From positions 416,825-480,824 of the forward strand of contig NZ_KE384554.1 in NCBI RefSeq assembly GCF_000426705.1: a DNA stretch of 64,000 bases, read 5' to 3'. Shown piece by piece: positions 30,329 to 40,919 of the stretch (its first letter is position 1; each line of letters opens with the position of its first letter). Position numbers and translations under genes: made by a program. Source of the DNA: Spirochaeta cellobiosiphila DSM 17781. Lineage in GTDB: Bacteria; Spirochaetota; Spirochaetia; DSM-17781. The notes below the pieces were generated by a model. The model saw only the letters and a program-made list of their open reading frames with translations. It had not been told where the DNA came from and made no database searches.

Positions 30329-31243
30329 ATGAGAAATAAGACGAATGAATTAAAAAAACATGGTCTGCTGTATTTGATGGCTATTCCAGCTTGTCTCTTT
30401 TTTATTCTTAATTCCTACTTACCGATGTTTGGAATATATTTAGCATTTACTAAATATAATTTTAGGGGAGGAATCTTCGGAAGCCCCTTCATTGGATTTG
30501 AAAATTTTAAATACCTATTAGAATCTGGTACTTTATTCCGCATTACCCGTAATACCTTTCTCTATAATCTTGTCTTCATTCTGCTTGGAAATTCATTACA
30601 GATTGTAACAGCTATATTATTATCAAAAATAGCAAACCGCTTTGTCAAACGGACAACACAATCCTTAATGTTTCTACCTTATTTTGTTTCCTATGTCATA
30701 TTAGGAGTGTTTGTCTACAATTTGTTAAACTATGAAAAAGGTCTCGTTAATAGTCTGCTTATTCAATGGGGTATGGAAAGGTTTGATGCCTTCAATACTC
30801 CCCTCTTCTGGATATTTGGACTTATTGCCGCTTATATATGGAAATGGTTAGGATATGGAACTGTCATCTATTTAGCCGCTATATCAGGAATTCCAGAAGA
30901 ATACTATGAAGCGGCTAATATAGATGGAGCGAATGCTTTTCAACAAATTCGTTATATAACCCTTCCCTCTTTAAAACCCACATTTATCACCCTGCTACTA
31001 CTTAGTATAGGTAGAATACTGAGAGGTCAATTTGATTTGTTTTTTAATATTATAGGAAATAATGGTGTCTTATTTTCTACTACTGATGTCATAGATACTT
31101 TTGTTTATCGCTCAGTAGCTAAGACATTTGATATTGGTCTTGGTTCTGCAGCTGGATTATACCAATCCCTTTTTGGCTTTGCTCTCATCATGATTGTTAA
31201 TGGCATTATTAAACATATAAATGAAGATTATGCATTATTTTAG
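30329..31243 (+). CDS. Polysaccharide-type ABC permease, LplB family
   Basis: This 304-residue inner-membrane permease has six membrane helices. The N-terminal LLYLMAIPACLFFILNSYLP followed by MFGIYLAFTKYNF is diagnostic of the LplB group, which imports oligosaccharides from plant polysaccharides. The EAA loop is EYYEAANIDGANAFQQIRYI followed by TLPSLKP. GAGGGGG precedes the ATG. It heads an operon with a YtcP-type permease, two binding proteins, an AraC-type sensor and a lyase. No ATPase is encoded nearby. Confidence 0.88.
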   Translation: MRNKTNELKKHGLLYLMAIPACLFFILNSYLPMFGIYLAFTKYNFRGGIFGSPFIGFENFKYLLESGTLFRITRNTFLYNLVFILLGNSLQIVTAILLSKIANRFVKRTTQSLMFLPYFVSYVILGVFVYNLLNYEKGLVNSLLIQWGMERFDAFNTPLFWIFGLIAAYIWKWLGYGTVIYLAAISGIPEEYYEAANIDGANAFQQIRYITLPSLKPTFITLLLLSIGRILRGQFDLFFNIIGNNGVLFSTTDVIDTFVYRSVAKTFDIGLGSAAGLYQSLFGFALIMIVNGIIKHINEDYALF

Positions 31244-31253
31244 GAGTGCCCCT

Positions 31254-32150
31254 GTGCAGAAAAAAATAAAGAAACCTGTATCTGAATTAATTATTCAAAT
31301 CGTAGCTATTATTGTTTGTGGCATTGCAGCCCTATTATGTCTGCTCCCCTTTTTACTAGTCATTTCAGGATCTCTAACAGATAATGACTACATACTACAA
31401 TACGGATACAATATTTTACCCGGTAAGTTTTCCCTTGAAGCCTATCAATTCATTTTTGAAATCCCCGGTCCTGTGCTTCAAGCTTACGGAGTCACCTTAC
31501 TTAATACTACAGTAGGAACTTCTATAGGATTATTTATTATTGCGATGACAGGATATGTTCTTCAACGTCCCGATTGTAAATATAGAAATAGGATTTCCTT
31601 TTTCATATATTTTACAACCCTATTCCAAGGGGGACTCATCGCCTGGTACATAATGATCACAAGATATTATCAGCTACAAGATAATCGACTGGTTCTTATT
31701 CTGCCCCTTCTAATGAATCCATTTTTAATTATCTTAATGAAGAATTTCATTAAAACTTCCGTACCTCACGACATTATTGAAGCCGCGATTATTGATGGTG
31801 CTAATGATTTTACTATTTTCACACAGATCGTTCTCAAATTAGCCACTCCCGGGCTGGCTACTATTGGATTATTTTTAGCTCTGGCCTATTGGAATGACTG
31901 GTTTCATTCTTCATTGTTCATTTCCACCCCGTCAAAATATTCCTTGCAGTTTTTCCTATATAACACATTGAACAATACTCAAGCAATGAGAGAATTATCG
32001 CAAACGGGGGCCTCTGTCAGTATGGAAGTTCCTACCGAATCAGTTCGTCTCGCTATGGCAGTAATCTGTACAGGACCAATTGTACTGCTATATCCCTTTG
32101 TACAACGTTATTTTGTCAAAGGATTAACTATAGGAGCGGTTAAAGGTTAA
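31254..32150 (+). CDS. Polysaccharide-type ABC permease, YtcP/LplC family
   Basis: I place the start at a GTG (31254), because AGGAG at 31242-31246 is seven bases upstream; ATG codons at 31221 and 31230 lie inside the previous gene without a ribosome site. The 298-residue protein has six membrane helices and the EAA loop HDIIEAAIIDGANDFTIFTQ. The C-terminus PFVQRYFVKGLTIGAVKG is a hallmark of this permease family. It forms the translocation pore with the preceding LplB-type subunit. Confidence 0.88.
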   Translation: MQKKIKKPVSELIIQIVAIIVCGIAALLCLLPFLLVISGSLTDNDYILQYGYNILPGKFSLEAYQFIFEIPGPVLQAYGVTLLNTTVGTSIGLFIIAMTGYVLQRPDCKYRNRISFFIYFTTLFQGGLIAWYIMITRYYQLQDNRLVLILPLLMNPFLIILMKNFIKTSVPHDIIEAAIIDGANDFTIFTQIVLKLATPGLATIGLFLALAYWNDWFHSSLFISTPSKYSLQFFLYNTLNNTQAMRELSQTGASVSMEVPTESVRLAMAVICTGPIVLLYPFVQRYFVKGLTIGAVKG

Positions 32151-32187
32151 TTCTGAGAAATCAGAAAACATAAAAAAGGAGTAGAAT

Positions 32188-33717
32188 ATGAAAAGGATTT
32201 TCTTGTTTTCACTATTATTTGCAATAATGGTGAGCTGGGTCTTCAGTGGGGGACAGCACAGTGATGTAGAGAATGGAAAGTTGGACTTATCCAAGAAAGT
32301 AGAACTGCAATTCTGGATGTTAGGTAATGCCCCCGGAGACCTAAAATTAATAGAAGAAGAAGTCAATAAGCTCGCCTTGGAAGACTTAAATTGTACAGTT
32401 AAGTTTAATTATACAACTTGGACGGACTGGTCTCAAAAATACAAATTACTACTAACCTCTGGACAGCAAATTGATTTGATATTTACGTCAGAATGGACAG
32501 ATTACCAGAGATATGCCCGTAGTGGAGCCTTTTTGGAATTGGAAAATATCGTCCCTATTGCGGCTCCTGAGTTAAATACGTTTATACCTGAAAACTATTG
32601 GAATGCGGTCAAAGTGGCAGGTCATATCTATACAATGCCAAATACCTGGAAAGAATATGTCTATGATGGCTTTGAGTATCGTGAAGATTTGAGGAAAAAA
32701 TATAAGCTTCCTGAAATAAACTCAATCGAAACTATTGAAATGTACCTAGAAGCCATAGCGGAAAACGAGCCATCCATGATGCCTCTGGGAGAAGGAGGAA
32801 CAGGCCCCAAAGGCTTCTTAATGGTCTATCCTATTACAGCAGAATTGCTTCATCCCTGGTCTGATCGTAGCATGGATAATTATGGACTTGTGTCAGATAA
32901 TGCTAATCCCAGAGTCATGTATCAATATTGGGGATCAGAAGAACATCTAAATGACCTCAAACGATGGAAGAAATGGGCTGATAATGGTTATTGGTCAAGA
33001 AGCATTTTATCCTCAACAGAAGATCCCGTAGCTGCTTTTCAAGCTGGAAAATTAGGCGCCAAAATATCAGGAATAAATCCAGTTAAGTATAGTCAGGATG
33101 TCATTGTGATGGGTAAGAATCATCCTGATTGGGAAGTTGGATATTATCCCTTTAGTTATGCCACTAGAATCGTACATCCTGTTCATCCTACACACAATGG
33201 TTTTGCCGTTCCCGTGAGCAGTAAGTACCCAGGAAGAGCTGTCGCCCTATTTGAAAAATTAGTCATGGATAAAAAGTATAATCGATTAACAAACTATGGT
33301 ATTGAGGGCGTTCATTATACCAATGATAATGGATACTACAAAATGCTAGGGAACGCTGAAACATCAGGCTTTAAAAGGGAGTCTATGAATTCCTGGGCCT
33401 GGCGAAATCCAGAATACATGCTCTTCGATCCTAGTTTTGATCTAGTAAAATCGATTTTTACTGAATTTGATAAGTTTTCCACTCCTGACCTTTATAATGG
33501 ATTTGCCGAAGACTATACCCCTTATCAGTCACAGAAAACGGCATTAGAACAAGTGATAGCAGAATATCTTGCTCCCTTACAGGCTGGTTTAGTAGAGGAT
33601 GTCGAAGCTGGACTAAATAAGTTTATGGTTGAAGCAAAAGCAGCCGGAATGGAAGAGATCCAGTCTGAATATTTAAACCAGTGGTATGCCTATTGCGATG
33701 AAATGAATATCCAATAA
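32188..33717 (+). CDS. Oligosaccharide-binding protein, LplA/YtcQ type with DUF3502-like C-terminus
   Basis: This 509-residue extracellular solute-binding protein has a signal peptide MKRIFLFSLLFAIMVSWVFS followed by GGQ. There is no lipobox cysteine, unlike its paralogue 3.8 kb downstream. The binding-protein core includes VELQFWMLGNAPGDLKLIEE and QIDLIFTSEWTDYQRYARSG. The C-terminal block MNSWAWRNPEYMLFDPSFDL to DVEAGLNKFMVEAKAAGM matches the DUF3502 end of LplA-type proteins. It follows the two permeases and presumably is their primary binding protein. Confidence 0.87.
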   Translation: MKRIFLFSLLFAIMVSWVFSGGQHSDVENGKLDLSKKVELQFWMLGNAPGDLKLIEEEVNKLALEDLNCTVKFNYTTWTDWSQKYKLLLTSGQQIDLIFTSEWTDYQRYARSGAFLELENIVPIAAPELNTFIPENYWNAVKVAGHIYTMPNTWKEYVYDGFEYREDLRKKYKLPEINSIETIEMYLEAIAENEPSMMPLGEGGTGPKGFLMVYPITAELLHPWSDRSMDNYGLVSDNANPRVMYQYWGSEEHLNDLKRWKKWADNGYWSRSILSSTEDPVAAFQAGKLGAKISGINPVKYSQDVIVMGKNHPDWEVGYYPFSYATRIVHPVHPTHNGFAVPVSSKYPGRAVALFEKLVMDKKYNRLTNYGIEGVHYTNDNGYYKMLGNAETSGFKRESMNSWAWRNPEYMLFDPSFDLVKSIFTEFDKFSTPDLYNGFAEDYTPYQSQKTALEQVIAEYLAPLQAGLVEDVEAGLNKFMVEAKAAGMEEIQSEYLNQWYAYCDEMNIQ

Positions 33718-33749
33718 AAACTTTGACCGATGATAGGGGCCAGTGTATC

Positions 33750-36038
33750 ATGTTATTAATGCAACAAGAATTGTCAGATAATAGAAAGAAGTTATTTGTC
33801 AAAATACTAGTATACACAGCCCTTATTCTCGCTGTAACCTTACTATCAACCTCAACGATTCTATATAAAAACTTTGAAAAAGTAACTCTTGATCAGATAG
33901 TTCAAAGAGACATAGAAGGATTGACTCATACTAGTCAATCGATCAACTCTATGCTGGAAGTAGCAGTGACCCTGTCTAATCAGATTTATAGGGATCTTAA
34001 TGTCAGTCAACTCATGCATTATGAAAATCCGAGTCCAGAATCTTTACGTGCAGCAGATGAACAACTATCCAATTATAGATTATCTATACCATTTATTGAC
34101 TCGGTCTACATATATAACGGATCTAACAAAAAGATATACATTAATTCTATCACTAAAAGAAATATCTATAGAAATGCTATTCAGGATTTAGAGTCCTTTG
34201 ATGATAAAGAAATCATTGAAATGCTAAAACATTACCAAGACTATCAAAGTTATATTCCTATACCAAGAGTGATGACCTTACATAATACATCCTCTATCGA
34301 AGAACAATATTACACTTTTTTGGTTTATGACTTACTTAACAAAGAACACTTAAATAGTGCAGTCATTGTAAATATAAGATCAGATTGGATCAGACAATTT
34401 ATGTATGATGCTCATTTTGATCAGGATAGTGCTGTTTTAATTGTCGATTCACAAAATAAGATTGTTGAAGGTAGTCAGTTATACCCTTTTAACAAAAAGA
34501 TCTCCGATCTGGCTTGGTATAAAAAACTATCACCGACTTCCCCGTTTACCATAACAGCTGTTTTTGACTCTCAATATTTAATAACAGCTACTAAATCCCC
34601 CAAGTATGGATGGACCTATCTCAAGTTCTCCTCTACCGGTAATATTTTTTTGAGTATAAAACGAATGAGATTCCTCACCATACTAATGGCTTGTGTTTTA
34701 CTTCTGATAGGACTAATTGTTGATTATTTTTTATCCCATCGAATCTACTCACCAATTAGCCAAATAATGATAAATTTGAATAAATTACAACTGGAACATA
34801 ATCGAAACACAAAACAGCTTCAAGATGTCTTATTCCGAGATCTATTACTTCATCGAAAAGAAATAACAGATGAGGATGTACAAGAATTTTTTGATCACTG
34901 GAAGCTGGAATTTGTGAGCACTGGGTACTATAGAGTCATTCTCTTGAAGATAGATAACTACAATAAATATATTCAAGATGTGAGTTCTCAGGAACGAGGT
35001 CAAATAAAGAACATTATTCAATTAGAAGGAAAAAAACAACTTAGTAAATTCCAACATACCTATTCAATAGAAATGGGTAAAGATGGAATCGCTTTTATTC
35101 TTAATAGTAAAGTAAATGATGTAACAAGAGATAGTTTAGGTAATATTCTCTTATCTCTGCGCGACTTTTATAAAAACCATTTAAACCTTGGGACTTCCTA
35201 TAGCATTAGTACAATATGTAAAAACTCTAATAAACTACATATTATTTATAAAGAATCACTGAAGACCTTTGTTTATAGACTATTCCATGGACATGGTTGC
35301 ATACTATTTACGGAGGATATCTATTTAGAGAACTTCCATGACTATACATATCCCCTTATACAGGAAAAACAATTAATTAATTATTTAATGACTGGCAAAA
35401 TAGATAACGCGATTAGTGTATTAGAAGAGATATTAAACTTATCTACCCACAATAATCCTGACGATATCATTAACCTTACCATTCCTAAATTAACCTTCTC
35501 TATCCAGGATGCTATCAGAGTTATCCAACAAAATAATGCTCTTACTAATGATTATTCCCATGTTATTAGCATTCCCAATATAAGTGAACAAGAAACAATA
35601 ACTGATATTATTGATATTTTCAGACATTGCTTTTATGAACTTCTAAAAGTTATTCAGGATAAGAAAGCATCCAAAAGTGATGATTTGATAGAGCTGATAG
35701 ACAGTATAATATTATCTGATTTTAGGCAGAATGATTTTTATATAGAAATCATTGCGGACAAGCTTGGTAAATCCTCTACCTATATCAGTCATGTCTATAA
35801 AACCCATACAGGCTATACTATATTGGAAAAAATAATTGAAGTGAGAATGCAGGAAGCACGAAAACTTTTAGAAAACAGTGAAAAAACAGTAACAGAGATT
35901 GCTGAAGAAACGGGATTTTCCAGCAGCTCTTATTTTTTTAAAGTATTTAAAAAAATACATGGAGCAACCCCCAGTGCCTATCGCCTTCAATTTCAAAATC
36001 AATTCAATCCAGTAATCAGGAATAAATTACATGTATAG
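33750..36038 (+). CDS. Membrane-bound AraC-family sensor-regulator (YesN/LplR type)
   Basis: This 762-residue protein begins at ATG 33750; the frame upstream starts at an unsupported TTG. TM1 is at about residues 16-38. An extracytoplasmic sensor domain with Cache-like character spans 40-300, and TM2 is near 308-328 (FLTILMACVLLLIGLIVDYF). A cytoplasmic region follows. The C-terminal AraC DNA-binding domain (about 655-755) has both helix-turn-helices: IIADKLGKSSTYISHVYKTH and VTEIAEETGFSSSSYFFKVF then KKIHGATPSAYR. Such one-component sensors read extracellular oligosaccharide and activate neighbouring genes. It sits between two paralogous binding-protein genes and overlaps the second by eight bases. 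Confidence 0.88.
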   Translation: MLLMQQELSDNRKKLFVKILVYTALILAVTLLSTSTILYKNFEKVTLDQIVQRDIEGLTHTSQSINSMLEVAVTLSNQIYRDLNVSQLMHYENPSPESLRAADEQLSNYRLSIPFIDSVYIYNGSNKKIYINSITKRNIYRNAIQDLESFDDKEIIEMLKHYQDYQSYIPIPRVMTLHNTSSIEEQYYTFLVYDLLNKEHLNSAVIVNIRSDWIRQFMYDAHFDQDSAVLIVDSQNKIVEGSQLYPFNKKISDLAWYKKLSPTSPFTITAVFDSQYLITATKSPKYGWTYLKFSSTGNIFLSIKRMRFLTILMACVLLLIGLIVDYFLSHRIYSPISQIMINLNKLQLEHNRNTKQLQDVLFRDLLLHRKEITDEDVQEFFDHWKLEFVSTGYYRVILLKIDNYNKYIQDVSSQERGQIKNIIQLEGKKQLSKFQHTYSIEMGKDGIAFILNSKVNDVTRDSLGNILLSLRDFYKNHLNLGTSYSISTICKNSNKLHIIYKESLKTFVYRLFHGHGCILFTEDIYLENFHDYTYPLIQEKQLINYLMTGKIDNAISVLEEILNLSTHNNPDDIINLTIPKLTFSIQDAIRVIQQNNALTNDYSHVISIPNISEQETITDIIDIFRHCFYELLKVIQDKKASKSDDLIELIDSIILSDFRQNDFYIEIIADKLGKSSTYISHVYKTHTGYTILEKIIEVRMQEARKLLENSEKTVTEIAEETGFSSSSYFFKVFKKIHGATPSAYRLQFQNQFNPVIRNKLHV

Positions 36039-37548
36039 AATGTCTATCATTTTACTGATTCTCATCTGTACTGGTTGTAATGGAAAATTAGAAGAGACAA
36101 AAGAACTGCCCTCGGAATTAGATTTGGTTAATCTTACCATTCAGATGGTAGGTGATCCTCCCCTGGATTTACCAATAATTGAATCTACACTTAATGAAAT
36201 GGCCCAACAAAAACTAAATTGTACTGTTCATTTTCAGTACACAACATGGTCAGATTATATGCAGAGATATCAACTGCTACTAAGTTCAGGAGAACCAATA
36301 GATTTAATATTTACATCGGATTGGTTATATTTTAGTCAATTTGCAATGAATGGTGCTTTTTTAGAGTTGGATAATCTCTTACCAATGTATGCTTCTGATT
36401 TATTAGAATACATACCTAGCCATTATTGGAAAACTGTCGCAATTAATAATAAAATTTATACAATCCCATCGATCTGGGAGGAATATGTAAATGAGGGCTT
36501 TCTATTTAGAGAAGATTTACGAAGTAAATATAACCTTCCTATCCCAGAAGATTTTAAGACAATAGAACAATATCTGGACACTATCCATCAAAAGCTTCCA
36601 GAACAGCCGATTACAGCAGCCATGGTAATAGACTCAGGTTACGGACCCTTCTTTTCTGCCATGAGTGTTCTAGAAATGAAATATTCATGGGTGGATAAAA
36701 ACATGCCCTATGGTTTAGTGGCCGATTATGCAAATCCTGATGAATTATATTGTTATTGGGAAACGTCAGAATTTAGAGAAGACATGAAAATGTTTAAAAG
36801 ATGGGCTGATAAAGGATTTTGGACCAAGAGTTCCCTATCTAATAAAAACCCTTTACAGGAAGCCTTTCTCAATCAACATAGTGTGGCCATACTTTATGGT
36901 CAGAATCCAATGAAATTCAGTAATATATCAACTCTATTCAAAAGGGAAGACTCAAGCATCAAAGTTGGTTATCATCCCTATAGTCAAAATAATAAACTGG
37001 TAAAACCAGTAAGTCCCATACATAATGGCATGGCCATTCCTCAGAGCTCAAAACATCCTGATAGAGCCCTTATGTTTTATCAGGAACTCTTACTCAATTC
37101 ATCCTGGAATAGACTGACCCAATACGGTATTCAAGATCAACATTACACCATAGACAAGGAAGGTTATTATGTAATGCTTGGCAATAAGGATACTAATGGA
37201 TTTACCCGTGAATCAATGAATAGCTGGGCTTGGAGAAATCCACAATCAATGCTATTTGATAGAAGTTATAACACAGTACTAAAGCTATTTAAAGAATTTG
37301 ACACTTATGCACAACCAGATATATTCTCAGGATTTGTAGAGGATTATTCTCCTTATGAAGCAGAACGATCAGCTCTTTATCAAATAGTTTCTCAATATCT
37401 CGTCCCAATTGAGGCGGGTTTTGTAGAGGATGTTGATCAATCAGTAAGTGATTTTTTAAAGAGAGCCAAAGAAGCAGGATTAGACAAAATTCATGAGGAT
37501 TACAAAAAACAATGGATCAACTATTGTAAAAATAAAGGATATCAGTAA
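36031..37548 (+). CDS. Second LplA/YtcQ-type binding lipoprotein (paralogue)
   Basis: This 505-residue lipoprotein has lipobox LICTGC (Cys16). It is clearly paralogous to the binding protein at 32188: both share LNCTV-F-YTTW-D, PIDLIFTS-W, IYT-P--W-EYV, REDLR-KY-LP and the ESMNSWAWRNP C-terminal block. The start lies inside the end of the AraC-type sensor gene (eight-base overlap) and the stop abuts the lyase gene, so it is co-translated with both. It might bind a different chain length, or present ligand to the sensor. Confidence 0.87.
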   Translation: MYRMSIILLILICTGCNGKLEETKELPSELDLVNLTIQMVGDPPLDLPIIESTLNEMAQQKLNCTVHFQYTTWSDYMQRYQLLLSSGEPIDLIFTSDWLYFSQFAMNGAFLELDNLLPMYASDLLEYIPSHYWKTVAINNKIYTIPSIWEEYVNEGFLFREDLRSKYNLPIPEDFKTIEQYLDTIHQKLPEQPITAAMVIDSGYGPFFSAMSVLEMKYSWVDKNMPYGLVADYANPDELYCYWETSEFREDMKMFKRWADKGFWTKSSLSNKNPLQEAFLNQHSVAILYGQNPMKFSNISTLFKREDSSIKVGYHPYSQNNKLVKPVSPIHNGMAIPQSSKHPDRALMFYQELLLNSSWNRLTQYGIQDQHYTIDKEGYYVMLGNKDTNGFTRESMNSWAWRNPQSMLFDRSYNTVLKLFKEFDTYAQPDIFSGFVEDYSPYEAERSALYQIVSQYLVPIEAGFVEDVDQSVSDFLKRAKEAGLDKIHEDYKKQWINYCKNKGYQ

Positions 37549-39272
37549 TGCAGAATTTATGTACTTCTATACTCAGTCCCTATCAAGAACTGGATAAACA
37601 AGGGTTCTATCAACAGTCAAGTCATATAAGTTACCAGGACTATATCCTTTATCAGGAGACAGGGGATAGAGCCCAATATGAGAAAAAATATTTTGCCCAA
37701 AGACGAAGATTAACAGGGCTAGCCCTGTTACTACTATATTCCCGAGAAAAAAAAGATTATGAAAAAAGCTTGGAGAATGTCATATGGGATATTTGCAATG
37801 AATATACCTGGGCTCTTCCTGCCCATCTACCTTCAGGAGGGACTCAAACTGATTTCGAGCATGACAAATTACTTGATCTCTTTAATTGTGAAACCGCTTT
37901 AGCTTTACTGGAGATCAAGAGACTATTTCATAATACACTACCCATATTTCTCCAGCAAAGAATTGAAAATGAAGTAAACAGGCGTGTTCTCCATGTCTAT
38001 CTAGATCAGAGTAGGCCCTCATGGAAATGGGAATCTTTACCTAATAACTGGAATGCTGTTTGTTCTTCCTCTATAGGATTGATCAGTTTGTATTCTATTG
38101 AAGATCCAGATCTACTTAAGAAAACCCTAAATAGAATTTTAACCAATCTGAATATTTACCTGAATAGTTTTATGCCTGATGGAATTAGTCTTGAAGGTTA
38201 TTATTATTGGTCATATGGATATTACTTTTTTGTTGCCTTTGCAGAGGAATTAAAGAAGAATCCTATATTTAAATTAGATTTATTATCTAAAGAGATATGC
38301 CTCAAGATTGCAAAGTTTCAAGAATACTGTTTTATTGGTGACCAAGTCACACTTAGTTTTTCTGATTCTTTGCCTAATGAACATTACCGTATTGGATTAA
38401 CTTATTATTTAAAGAATCGTTATCCTCAATTATCCATGCCACCTAAGGATATGGCTTTTCTTGAGGAAGATCCATACGGCCGTTGGCTAATGGCCTATCG
38501 AGATTTCAAATGGTATAAAGAATACAAGGATAATATCAATGTTGCATCCTCAAACTTAAAAGGAAATGGATTAATATCTCAAAAACAACAATGGGTAATC
38601 TACCCCATTACAAAAGACAATACAGGCCTTGGCTTCGCAGCAAAAGGGGGGAATAATGATGAACCTCACAATCACAACGATATTGGTTCCTTTATTATTA
38701 ATGACAACAACAGGCAATTGATATGTGATATAGGTCAAGGAAAATATAGTAAAAAATACTTTGGAACAGGACAATATGACATCTTTTGTAAGTCCTCCTT
38801 AGGTCATAATGTACCCATCATAGAAGGAAAACAACAAAGCTCGGGGCCTAACATAAAGAGCCTTTGGTTAGAAGATGATATCACTGAAAGTTCTATCAGC
38901 TTGAAGATGGATCTAAGCAAAGCTTATGAACTAATTCCTGGTAAATCTATCACCCGATATTTTAATTTTGATTACAATAAAAGTGTCCTGACACTCAAAG
39001 ACGTTTACCTTAATTGTCATAACTATACGGAAAGATTTATCACTCCTTTCCAACCAATACAGAACGAGAAAGTAGTAACCATTCCCACATCCGGGGGTAA
39101 TTTACTATTAGAAGTATTATCTCCCGAGCTGTCTAACATACAAATTCATGTTCATTCAGAGGAACATGTAAGCCATAATGATTCCAAAGAAATATATTGG
39201 GTTATCGATTATGAGAAGAAAACAGCAGAAAAGGAAGATCCCTTTCTCATTCAATTCCATTGGGAGAAATAA
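37548..39272 (+). CDS. Heparinase II/III-like polysaccharide lyase (cytoplasmic)
   Basis: This 574-residue protein has an N-terminal alpha/alpha-toroid region and a C-terminal beta-sandwich of the heparinase II/III type. In the toroid, WKWESLPNNWNAVCSSSIGL and DGISLEGYYYWSYGYYFFVA contain the Asn/His/Tyr-rich patches typical of the active site. The C-terminal domain opens with GGNNDEPHNHNDIGSFIIND, the metal/active-site motif of the superfamily. There is no signal peptide, so it would act on imported uronate-containing oligosaccharides. Its ATG overlaps the last base of the previous stop codon. The exact PL family and substrate are not assigned; hydrolase members of this fold also exist. Confidence 0.8.
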   Translation: MQNLCTSILSPYQELDKQGFYQQSSHISYQDYILYQETGDRAQYEKKYFAQRRRLTGLALLLLYSREKKDYEKSLENVIWDICNEYTWALPAHLPSGGTQTDFEHDKLLDLFNCETALALLEIKRLFHNTLPIFLQQRIENEVNRRVLHVYLDQSRPSWKWESLPNNWNAVCSSSIGLISLYSIEDPDLLKKTLNRILTNLNIYLNSFMPDGISLEGYYYWSYGYYFFVAFAEELKKNPIFKLDLLSKEICLKIAKFQEYCFIGDQVTLSFSDSLPNEHYRIGLTYYLKNRYPQLSMPPKDMAFLEEDPYGRWLMAYRDFKWYKEYKDNINVASSNLKGNGLISQKQQWVIYPITKDNTGLGFAAKGGNNDEPHNHNDIGSFIINDNNRQLICDIGQGKYSKKYFGTGQYDIFCKSSLGHNVPIIEGKQQSSGPNIKSLWLEDDITESSISLKMDLSKAYELIPGKSITRYFNFDYNKSVLTLKDVYLNCHNYTERFITPFQPIQNEKVVTIPTSGGNLLLEVLSPELSNIQIHVHSEEHVSHNDSKEIYWVIDYEKKTAEKEDPFLIQFHWEK

Positions 39273-39419: not shown

Positions 39420-40919
39420 ATGAGCATTGTACGATTCTATTCTGTCATACTTGTCAGTTTCTTAATATTGGCTTGTGATGGTAATTATCTATTCAATAAT
39501 GAGATGCAAGTGGACCAGTCCAGATCTGAAACTAGTGGATCAAAATCAAGAATCATTAATGGCCTTCAATGGGCTGATGAAGAAGGAGCCCCTATTCATG
39601 CTCACGGAGGTGGATTTATAAAGGTAGATAATTACTATTATTGGTTTGGTGAAAATCGTAATAGTGATTATTCCTTCAAGGAAGTATCCTGTTATCGTTC
39701 AACGGATTTGATGAATTGGGAATATAGAGGCGCCGCTCTCAATTCTGGAGGGGAAGAAGAGTTGACAGGAACGAATATTGAGAGACCTAAAGTTATATAT
39801 AATGCTAGTACAGATACCTTCGTAATGTGGATGCATTGGGAAAATGGAGAACATTATGGAGAAGCGAGGACAGCAGTGGCTAGTGCAAGTAATGTAGAAG
39901 GTCCCTATACCTATCATGGAAGCTTTAGACCTTATGATGATACTGATGTGATGGATAATGGAAAACCAGGATACATGTCCAGAGATTGTAATCTTTTTGT
40001 AGATGATGATGGTACTGGATATTTTATTTCCTCCTCCAATGAAAACATGGATTTACACTTATATAAACTAACAGATGATTATTTGGAGATAGATTATTTA
40101 GTAACTAAGTTATTTGAAGGACAGCAGAGGGAGGCACCTGTACTTTTCAAGCGCGAAGGCACTTACTTTTTGTTAACTTCAGGATGCACAGGATGGTCTC
40201 CAAACCGGGCTAAGTACGCGGTATCAACATCCCTGTCATCAGGTTGGTCCTCCATGAAAAATATTGGGGATTCTACGACATACCATTCTCAACCCACCTA
40301 TGTTATTCCCGTAGCAGGGACTGAGGGAACGGAATATATATATGCAGGTGACCGATGGGCTGGTGCATGGAGTGGTCCCTATTTAACATCTTCTTATGTT
40401 TGGTTACCATTAGAATTTCCTACTTCCACCACTATGTCACTTGAATGGTGTAATAATTTGGTTATCAATACCAGTGCAGGAAAGGTTGAAGGAGACTATA
40501 ATCCCCTAGCCTTTACAAATGTAAATAGTTCAAAGGTAATGGAAGTCTTTAATGCATCAACATCTGATAGTGGAATTATCACTCAATACGATAATAACGA
40601 CTTAGGAAATCAGCATTGGGAATTGGTCTATGATAATGGTGGTTATTTTTATCTAGAGAATGTTAACAGCCGAAAAGTGATGGATGTTCCATCCTCATCA
40701 ACGATGGAAGGGAAAGGCTTGATACAATACAGTTCTAATGGTGGTAACAATCAGAAATGGCAATTAAAGGATCAAGGAGATGGGACCTATGGTCTCATAA
40801 ACAAAAATAGCTCTCTATATGTTACGGTTCCTGATTACTCCATAGAAAATGGAACTCAACTTATTCAAAGTTCTTTTAATGGTTCAACGAATCAGTTGTG
40901 GACCATCAGTACCTATTAA
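39420..40919 (+). CDS. Secreted GH43 glycosidase with C-terminal ricin-type lectin domain
   Basis: This 499-residue lipoprotein has lipobox LILAC (Cys19). The five-bladed propeller domain (about 45-360) begins WADEEGAPIHAHGGGFIKVD then YYYWFGENR. This motif is characteristic of GH43 subfamily 24-like enzymes (exo-beta-1,3-galactanase group). A beta-trefoil lectin (RICIN/CBM13) follows at about 365-499, with three repeats ending QHWELV, QKWQLK and QLWTIS. It would trim arabinogalactan-like chains at the cell surface. The gene follows the lyase after 147 bp with its own candidate regulatory repeat and ribosome site AAGGAG. The subfamily call is tentative. Confidence 0.8.
   Translation: MSIVRFYSVILVSFLILACDGNYLFNNEMQVDQSRSETSGSKSRIINGLQWADEEGAPIHAHGGGFIKVDNYYYWFGENRNSDYSFKEVSCYRSTDLMNWEYRGAALNSGGEEELTGTNIERPKVIYNASTDTFVMWMHWENGEHYGEARTAVASASNVEGPYTYHGSFRPYDDTDVMDNGKPGYMSRDCNLFVDDDGTGYFISSSNENMDLHLYKLTDDYLEIDYLVTKLFEGQQREAPVLFKREGTYFLLTSGCTGWSPNRAKYAVSTSLSSGWSSMKNIGDSTTYHSQPTYVIPVAGTEGTEYIYAGDRWAGAWSGPYLTSSYVWLPLEFPTSTTMSLEWCNNLVINTSAGKVEGDYNPLAFTNVNSSKVMEVFNASTSDSGIITQYDNNDLGNQHWELVYDNGGYFYLENVNSRKVMDVPSSSTMEGKGLIQYSSNGGNNQKWQLKDQGDGTYGLINKNSSLYVTVPDYSIENGTQLIQSSFNGSTNQLWTISTY

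Follow-up and report, generated by a model that had tools for sequence, protein, structure and literature searches.

A division of labour between a solute-binding protein (SBP) for uptake and another that informs a sensor is already known from CuaDSR and XylFII-LytS, both histidine-kinase systems. In XylFII-LytS of Clostridium beijerinckii and in a two-SBP carbohydrate system of Geobacillus stearothermophilus, a dedicated sensory SBP acts beside the uptake SBP, and both are histidine-kinase systems. These two systems are cited in passages of PMC10384115 and PMC6321045. For CuaDSR of Ruminiclostridium cellulolyticum, the available part of PMC10384115 describes a sensor domain that binds the second SBP, CuaD, and not the transport SBP, CuaA; by itself, this domain bound none of the sugars tested. 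Here, we describe a locus of Spirochaeta cellobiosiphila DSM 17781, situated in a stretch of 64,000 nucleotides (the window, i.e. the whole DNA analysed), that encodes a membrane AraC-type regulator (the sensor) between two paralogous SBPs, SBP1 and SBP2. Gene order and phylogeny suggest that one SBP feeds an ATP-binding cassette (ABC) importer, while the other travels with the switch and may inform it.

According to the same part of PMC10384115, CuaDSR resembles the window in having two SBPs with split roles (a split that is only proposed for the window), with the second, lipidated SBP encoded beside the sensor. Further common traits are a sensor that has an alpha-beta outer domain and spans the membrane with two helices, an AraC-type output, and an oligosaccharide ABC importer under control (as proposed for the window). 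However, CuaDSR divides the task between a histidine kinase, CuaS, and a separate response regulator, CuaR, whereas sensor and DNA-binding domain form one protein in the window, and SBP-sensor binding is demonstrated for CuaDSR and proposed here. The systems of C. beijerinckii and G. stearothermophilus likewise combine a sensory with an uptake SBP, as proposed for the window, but operate with histidine kinases. The layout of CuaDSR and XylFII-LytS, with a second SBP gene beside the sensor gene in addition to a transport SBP, is seen in the window and in two related loci (L019 and L021), and a third (L020) shows its sensor-SBP2 half. Their histidine kinase and separate response regulator have no counterpart in the window’s array, as the list of open reading frames (ORFs) holds no kinase or response-regulator gene between 30329 and 39272.

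The sensor carries an AraC-type DNA-binding domain (HTH_18/HTH_AraC in Pfam, HTH_18 with 74.5 bits) and has a hydrophobic peak at residues 15-33 and another at residues 306-324 (762 in total), in agreement with the AraC-type transmembrane sensor that an earlier inspection of the letters and ORFs (the sequence-only reading) had recognized. The Pfam profile dCache_1 stays below its cut-off on this protein (22.3 vs 45 bits). An AlphaFold2 model of residues 36-306, computed from eight sequences, reached a mean predicted local distance difference test score (pLDDT) of 84.9 and a predicted template modelling score of 0.79. Its best Foldseek matches are double-Cache sensor domains (4xmr, E 1.9e-10), and it aligns with the tandem Cache structure 6mni at Z 20.6 and a root-mean-square deviation (rmsd) of 3.5 over 239 residues (VIA-align). 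The outer domain is, by this prediction, a dCache domain, in which two stacked PAS-like modules follow a long N-terminal helix. Because a dCache fold is combined with an AraC domain, and since the Pfam domain search found neither a kinase nor a receiver domain, the sensor is classified as a predicted one-component dCache-membrane-AraC protein.

A search of genome contigs with SBP2 yielded eight loci. The order permease, permease, SBP1, sensor, SBP2 recurs in Treponema UBA12037 (L019). A metagenome-assembled genome (MAG) of the Bacillota, Hungateiclostridiaceae UBA1305 (L021), shows SBP1, sensor, and SBP2, starting at a contig end, and a 3.8 kb contig of Spirochaetales SZUA-416 (L020) carries sensor and SBP2. 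Four further loci (L023-L026) consist of permease, permease, a single SBP, and the sensor. The eighth (L022:4033-11093) harbors a sister of the SBP2 clade beside permeases and no membrane AraC sensor; a LacI-like ORF, recognized by eye, lies downstream.

In all four loci of the sensor clade (window, L019, L020, and L021), the SBP2 gene comes next after the sensor gene and on its strand, at distances of -8, -4, -4, and +24 bases, respectively. SBP1 precedes the sensor by 32, 119, and 268 bases (window, L019, and L021). As SBP2 lies tighter to the sensor than SBP1, the spacing agrees with a sensor-SBP2 linkage. It also resembles the co-component systems VtrA/VtrC and ToxR/ToxS, in which, according to the available part of PMC9214523, the partner gene lies directly downstream of that of a membrane transcription factor, often overlapping it, and the partner forms the sensor together with the membrane factor. 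The same layout is found here, with sensor/SBP2 overlaps of 8, 4, and 4 bases and the 24-base gap of L021. The proteins differ: as described there, VtrA/VtrC and ToxR/ToxS rely on a CadC-like DNA-binding domain and a small lipocalin-like or ToxS partner, the window on an AraC domain, a dCache domain, and a two-lobed SBP.

Phylogenies were computed from 36 rows for the SBPs and 22 rows for the sensors, redundant rows having been removed here by choice of sets and in preceding trees by identity thresholds. The four SBP2s form a clade (support 100/97), joined next by the protein of L022 (95/92). As for the SBP1s, those from the window and L019 make a sister pair (100/100) that is placed with lone importer SBPs from a Bacillota family (98/98); nearest to this pair are the single SBPs of two-permease importers in that family, and the SBP1 of L021 groups with an SBP of locus L058 (100/100). 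The four sensors are a clade as well (99/96), with L021 outermost in both the sensor and the SBP2 clade. From these trees it follows that sensor and SBP2 have a common history that SBP1 does not match. In approximately unbiased (AU) tests, SBP1 and SBP2 as sisters were rejected for the window (p 1.7e-8) and for L021 (p 2.5e-66), as was a single clade of the three visible SBP1s (p 2.6e-4); these p values are somewhat flattering, since a quick preliminary tree was already at hand when the groups to be tested were chosen. A sister relationship of the L021 and L058 sensors was rejected by a narrow margin only (p 0.033). The first of these tests rules out that the window’s two SBPs arose by recent local duplication. 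A lineage-specific accident, which the sequence-only reading had named as an outcome fatal to its proposal, is excluded for the SBP2 lineage by its recurrence in four loci of two phyla and by the clade trees. Judged from these sequences, SBP2 is an old lineage, inherited along with one sensor clade.

Both binding proteins match SBP_bac_1 and DUF3502 in Pfam (DUF3502 with 60.3 bits in SBP1 and 53.3 bits in SBP2, curated cut-off 24.4) and are 45% identical over 487 aligned columns (E 6e-159), so their description as paralogues stands. The predicted model of SBP2 (pLDDT 88.8) is a full two-lobed SBP. Among its closest solved folds is NgtS of Streptococcus pneumoniae (5suo; Z 30.2, rmsd 3.1, 438 residues aligned); AlgQ2 (4tqu) aligns at Z 20.1 and rmsd 4.9 over 444 residues, and the fold neighbours include alginate- and chondroitin-disaccharide-binding proteins. 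NgtS (5suo/5swa) and AlgQ2 share the fold with SBP2 but are transport SBPs, with no sensor partner named in their structure entries. The LytS-XylFII structure 5xsj is not among the fold matches listed for the models, which leaves a likeness possible. SBP2 is a predicted lipoprotein, as had been proposed, with a signal peptide closing in LICTGC, an atypical yet plausible lipobox; since the signal peptide of SBP1 is devoid of a lipobox cysteine, SBP2 is the sole predicted lipoprotein of the pair. By pattern and eye, a lipobox is present in four of four SBP2s (window, L019, L020, and L021) and in none of the three SBP1s (window, L019, and L021) that are visible, that of L020 lying beyond the contig end. 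The SBP1 of the Bacillota MAG (L021:102-1871) is a fusion of a Big_2 (Ig-like) domain with an SBP and has a signal peptide without lipobox, which is odd for the importer SBP of a presumed single-membrane cell.

Within the SBP1-sensor-SBP2 clade, sequence identity is higher in the outer domain than in the cytoplasmic linker (38-39% vs 26-30% in three pairs with the window); the same tendency, though weaker, is seen in 210 pairs of the Bacillota family (mean difference 6.5, standard deviation 5.0).

To place the clade among its relatives, sensors were searched in further genomes. At threshold, 7 of the 392 genomes of the window’s phylum contained a relative. The window’s order comprises a single genome in the collection and, hence, close relatives of the window are missing. 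A profile of the four sensors (threshold E 1e-80) matched in 6/58 genomes of the order of UBA1305, in 1/340 of the order of L019 (L019 itself), in 6/398 of a draw from the Bacillota, and in 145/295 of one Bacillota family of large genomes, probably the Paenibacillaceae; three further groups gave 1/116, 0/29, and 1/196. Only the best two candidates per genome were scored in the phylum and Bacillota-draw searches, and the best three in the searches of L019’s order and the Bacillota family, so that second sensors in a genome can escape. In a first tally, 103 loci were examined; without L022, which lacks a sensor, 102 sensors remained, accompanied by one SBP in 88 cases, two in nine, three in one, and none in four. 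Among 40 further sensors, 37 had one SBP and three had none. The 142 loci, mostly from one Bacillota family and thus not independent, include L067, which is the contig of L020, and the nine two-SBP cases include one SBP that is apparently split (L176) and one that is remote (L120). Loci in which the sensor is immediately followed by a second SBP of the same orientation are L019, L021, L140, and the window; L067, which shows the sensor-SBP2 pair, makes a fifth. L140:1909-10286 belongs to another branch of the sensor family and reads sensor, SBP, permease, permease, SBP; its two SBPs are 49% identical, and the ORF of the one next to the sensor touches or overlaps the sensor ORF. On whether the sensor always has a duplicate SBP as companion, for which the sequence-only reading had proposed a survey, the answer is negative, since 125 of the 142 loci carry one SBP.

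We see an even chance that SBP1 feeds the importer and that SBP2 is the co-inherited partner of the sensor in a binding-protein-coupled one-component regulator. What the sequence-only reading envisaged as a division of labour holds insofar as SBP2 is co-inherited with the sensor clade, follows the sensor tightly and is lipidated by prediction in four of four loci, and SBP1 is nearest to lone importer SBPs; it does not hold as a general rule of duplicates, and neither the lipid anchor by itself nor the residues of SBP2 speak for it. The wider proposition, that a dCache-membrane AraC factor takes its input from a dedicated lipoprotein SBP without a kinase and that this evolved at least twice (in the SBP1-sensor-SBP2 clade and in L140), is put forward more tentatively, at somewhat less than an even chance.

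Several observations weigh against a sensory role of SBP2. The pairing is known from four loci only, one of which is cut at both ends, and the nearest relative of the SBP2 clade (L022) sits in a transporter operon without a sensor. In the 142 loci taken together, one SBP is the rule (125 loci), with none in seven, two in nine, and three in one. A permease tree and two tests placed the permeases with neither SBP (p ~0.25 for both alternatives). In a distance-tree test on 61 single-SBP loci, the outer domain and the SBP were correlated (partial r 0.38, controlled for the permeases and for the remaining parts of the sensor; reached in 0/999 shuffles), but the partial correlation of outer domain and permease was nearly as high (0.31), so that the test is not specific. 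Lipidation alone is no argument for signalling, because SBPs in the window’s genome are mixed in this respect: eleven others, inspected by eye, comprise five with and six without a lipobox. Lone importer SBPs share a set of conserved columns, of which the SBP2s keep 72-83% (window 120/167, L019 135/167, L020 131/164, and L021 138/167), compared to 142/166 and 145/167 in the SBP1s of the window and L019. Ten columns are kept in both of these SBP1s and altered in all four SBP2s, and five show the reverse, while many SBP2 signature residues are common to the single-SBP relatives L022-L026. As most importer columns are kept and many signature residues are shared in this way, SBP2 shows no visible loss of importer function. 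The notion of SBP2 as a derived copy, with lone SBPs resembling SBP1 more, was dropped, since the signature residues occur in L022-L026, and on their account neither SBP can be called ancestral.

The retention of most importer residues in SBP2 and the lone transporter SBP of L022 would also fit a simpler arrangement, in which both SBPs feed the same permeases with different ligand ranges or affinities and the sensor, without an SBP partner, merely lies between them. Two-SBP importers without a sensor-SBP pairing do recur: in L058, L162, L163, and L179, an SBP flanks the permease pair on either side, the copies being 62-76% identical, and the sensor gene is divergent or convergent. Those extra copies are, however, young and adjacent to permeases, whereas SBP2 is old, always located behind the sensor, and tracks the phylogeny of the sensor rather than that of SBP1, which renders two plain importer SBPs unlikely, albeit the strongest competitor. 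It is less probable still that the sensor itself binds a released sugar, in the pocket of its dCache domain, or responds to another cue, and that SBP2 is linked to it by co-expression only. The closest folds of the outer domain are dCache domains, many of which were solved with directly bound small ligands, and 132 of the 142 sensors in the survey are accompanied by one SBP or none; yet direct sensing does not explain why SBP2 is regularly found with one sensor clade, and dCache domains also belong to a class for which indirect sensing via binding proteins is described and SBP stimulation is considered possible (in the part of PMC6321045 available). Reversed or shared roles, with the unlipidated SBP1 informing the sensor and the lipidated SBP2 serving the importer, could draw on relatives whose only SBP might serve importer and sensor alike, on the lipidation of importer SBPs in most relatives (lipobox in 101/110 SBPs surveyed, with a permissive pattern), and on the unlipidated fusion protein of L021, but are very improbable given the grouping of two SBP1s (window and L019) with lone importer SBPs, the frequency of unlipidated SBPs in the window’s own genome, and the fact that SBP1 lies less close to the sensor and has a tree differing from the sensor’s.

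If SBP2 is the partner of the sensor, signalling might proceed as follows. SBP1 would load the two permeases, and SBP2, a lipid-anchored paralogue co-produced with the sensor, would dock on the dCache domain once loaded with an oligosaccharide, or in a conformation that depends on the ligand. From the dCache domain, this signal would be relayed across the membrane to the AraC domain, which would then bind its DNA target and turn on, rather than repress, the transporter-lyase operon including the sensor gene itself. We infer ligand binding by SBP2, its contact with the sensor, the DNA target, and the sign of regulation. A paralogue of an importer SBP would thereby be set aside as sensor input, and SBPs would drive gene expression by the shortest possible membrane route, without a phosphorelay, providing a simple, portable sugar-responsive switch. 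Direct transcription factors would join the receptor classes driven by SBPs, signal reception by the dCache-AraC membrane regulators so frequent in the Bacillota family (145/295 genomes) would be opened to direct test, and the single-SBP majority would raise the question whether one SBP does both jobs.

We take YtdP of Bacillus subtilis to be a membrane AraC regulator. Its locus also encodes YtcQ-YtcP-YteP, a pectin-oligosaccharide importer, and thus presents an importer beside a regulator of the window’s general type; the available part of PMC5730181 names one SBP and describes no sensory SBP. The receptors listed as SBP-activated in the part of PMC9602780 at hand are chemoreceptors, sensor kinases, diguanylate cyclases/phosphodiesterases, and Ser/Thr kinases; transcription factors do not appear in this list. 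In a survey of transmembrane transcription regulators, the word AraC is absent from the main text (PMC10269533). The literature searched contained no account of a membrane AraC regulator coupled to a binding protein, which is no proof of absence as most subscription journals lay outside the search.

The gene order, strands, and coordinates of the sequence-only reading were confirmed from the ORF list: permease, permease, SBP1, sensor, SBP2, and lyase form a single collinear array on the + strand from 30329 to 39272 (Table 1), followed after a gap of 147 bases by a GH43-lectin gene. Permease 1 is 74% identical to its counterpart in L019. For the sensor, ATG 33750 or 33759 is a likelier start than the listed TTG 33723. 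The overlap of eight bases between sensor and SBP2 can be read in the sequence as claimed; as SBP2 has an alternative in-frame start (ATG 36040), with which the overlap would vanish, it is likely, not certain. A promoter scan gave 48 promoter-like sites vs 41.8 expected and, therefore, no operon promoter is claimed.

Table 1. Features of the two-SBP sensor locus (positions in the window).
Feature	Position	Strand	Source or remark
ABC permease 1 (BPD_transp_1)	30329..31243	+	ORF list, Pfam
ABC permease 2 (BPD_transp_1), overlapping permease 1	31221..32150	+	ORF list, Pfam
SBP1, DUF3502-type; signal peptide lacks a lipobox cysteine; proposed importer SBP	32188..33717	+	
Membrane AraC-type regulator (sensor)	33750..36038	+	listed ORF start TTG 33723
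Sensor membrane helix 1, residues 15-33	33792..33848	+	hydropathy peak
Sensor outer dCache domain (predicted), modelled segment	33855..34667	+	
Sensor membrane helix 2, residues 306-324	34665..34721	+	hydropathy peak
AraC-type DNA-binding domain of the sensor (HTH_18)	35751..35984	+	Pfam
Overlap of sensor end and SBP2 start, 8 bases	36031..36038	+	
SBP2, second DUF3502-type SBP; atypical lipobox LICTGC; proposed sensory SBP	36031..37548	+	
Polysaccharide lyase, possibly PL33-like; no obvious signal peptide by eye	37548..39272	+	
Secreted GH43 with ricin-type lectin domains	39420..40919	+	operon membership unsure

The lyase gives a weak match to Hepar_II_III_C (Pfam, E 8e-4, under the cut-off) and hits the solved 'heparinase' structures 8r75/8r70 at ~1e-32 (phmmer); these codes occur in the part of a 2025 paper on PL33 that was available (PMC11848413). 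From the PL33-linked structure matches of the lyase, the fold neighbours of SBP2, and the GH43 and GH51 genes downstream (GH51 called from its arabinofuranosidase domain), a plausible guess, but no more than that, is that the substrate is an acidic oligosaccharide containing uronic acid. Further downstream (window:40976-48347), minus-strand genes for an arabinofuranosidase (GH51-like), a GH43 protein, and an ArsR/MarR-like regulator face a plus-strand set of SBP, two permeases (called by position and size only), and a CBM9_2 protein. The region directly upstream (window:20283-26126) encodes a PEP-utilising enzyme, a GH8 protein, and a response-regulator/histidine-kinase pair, the kinase being recognized by eye.

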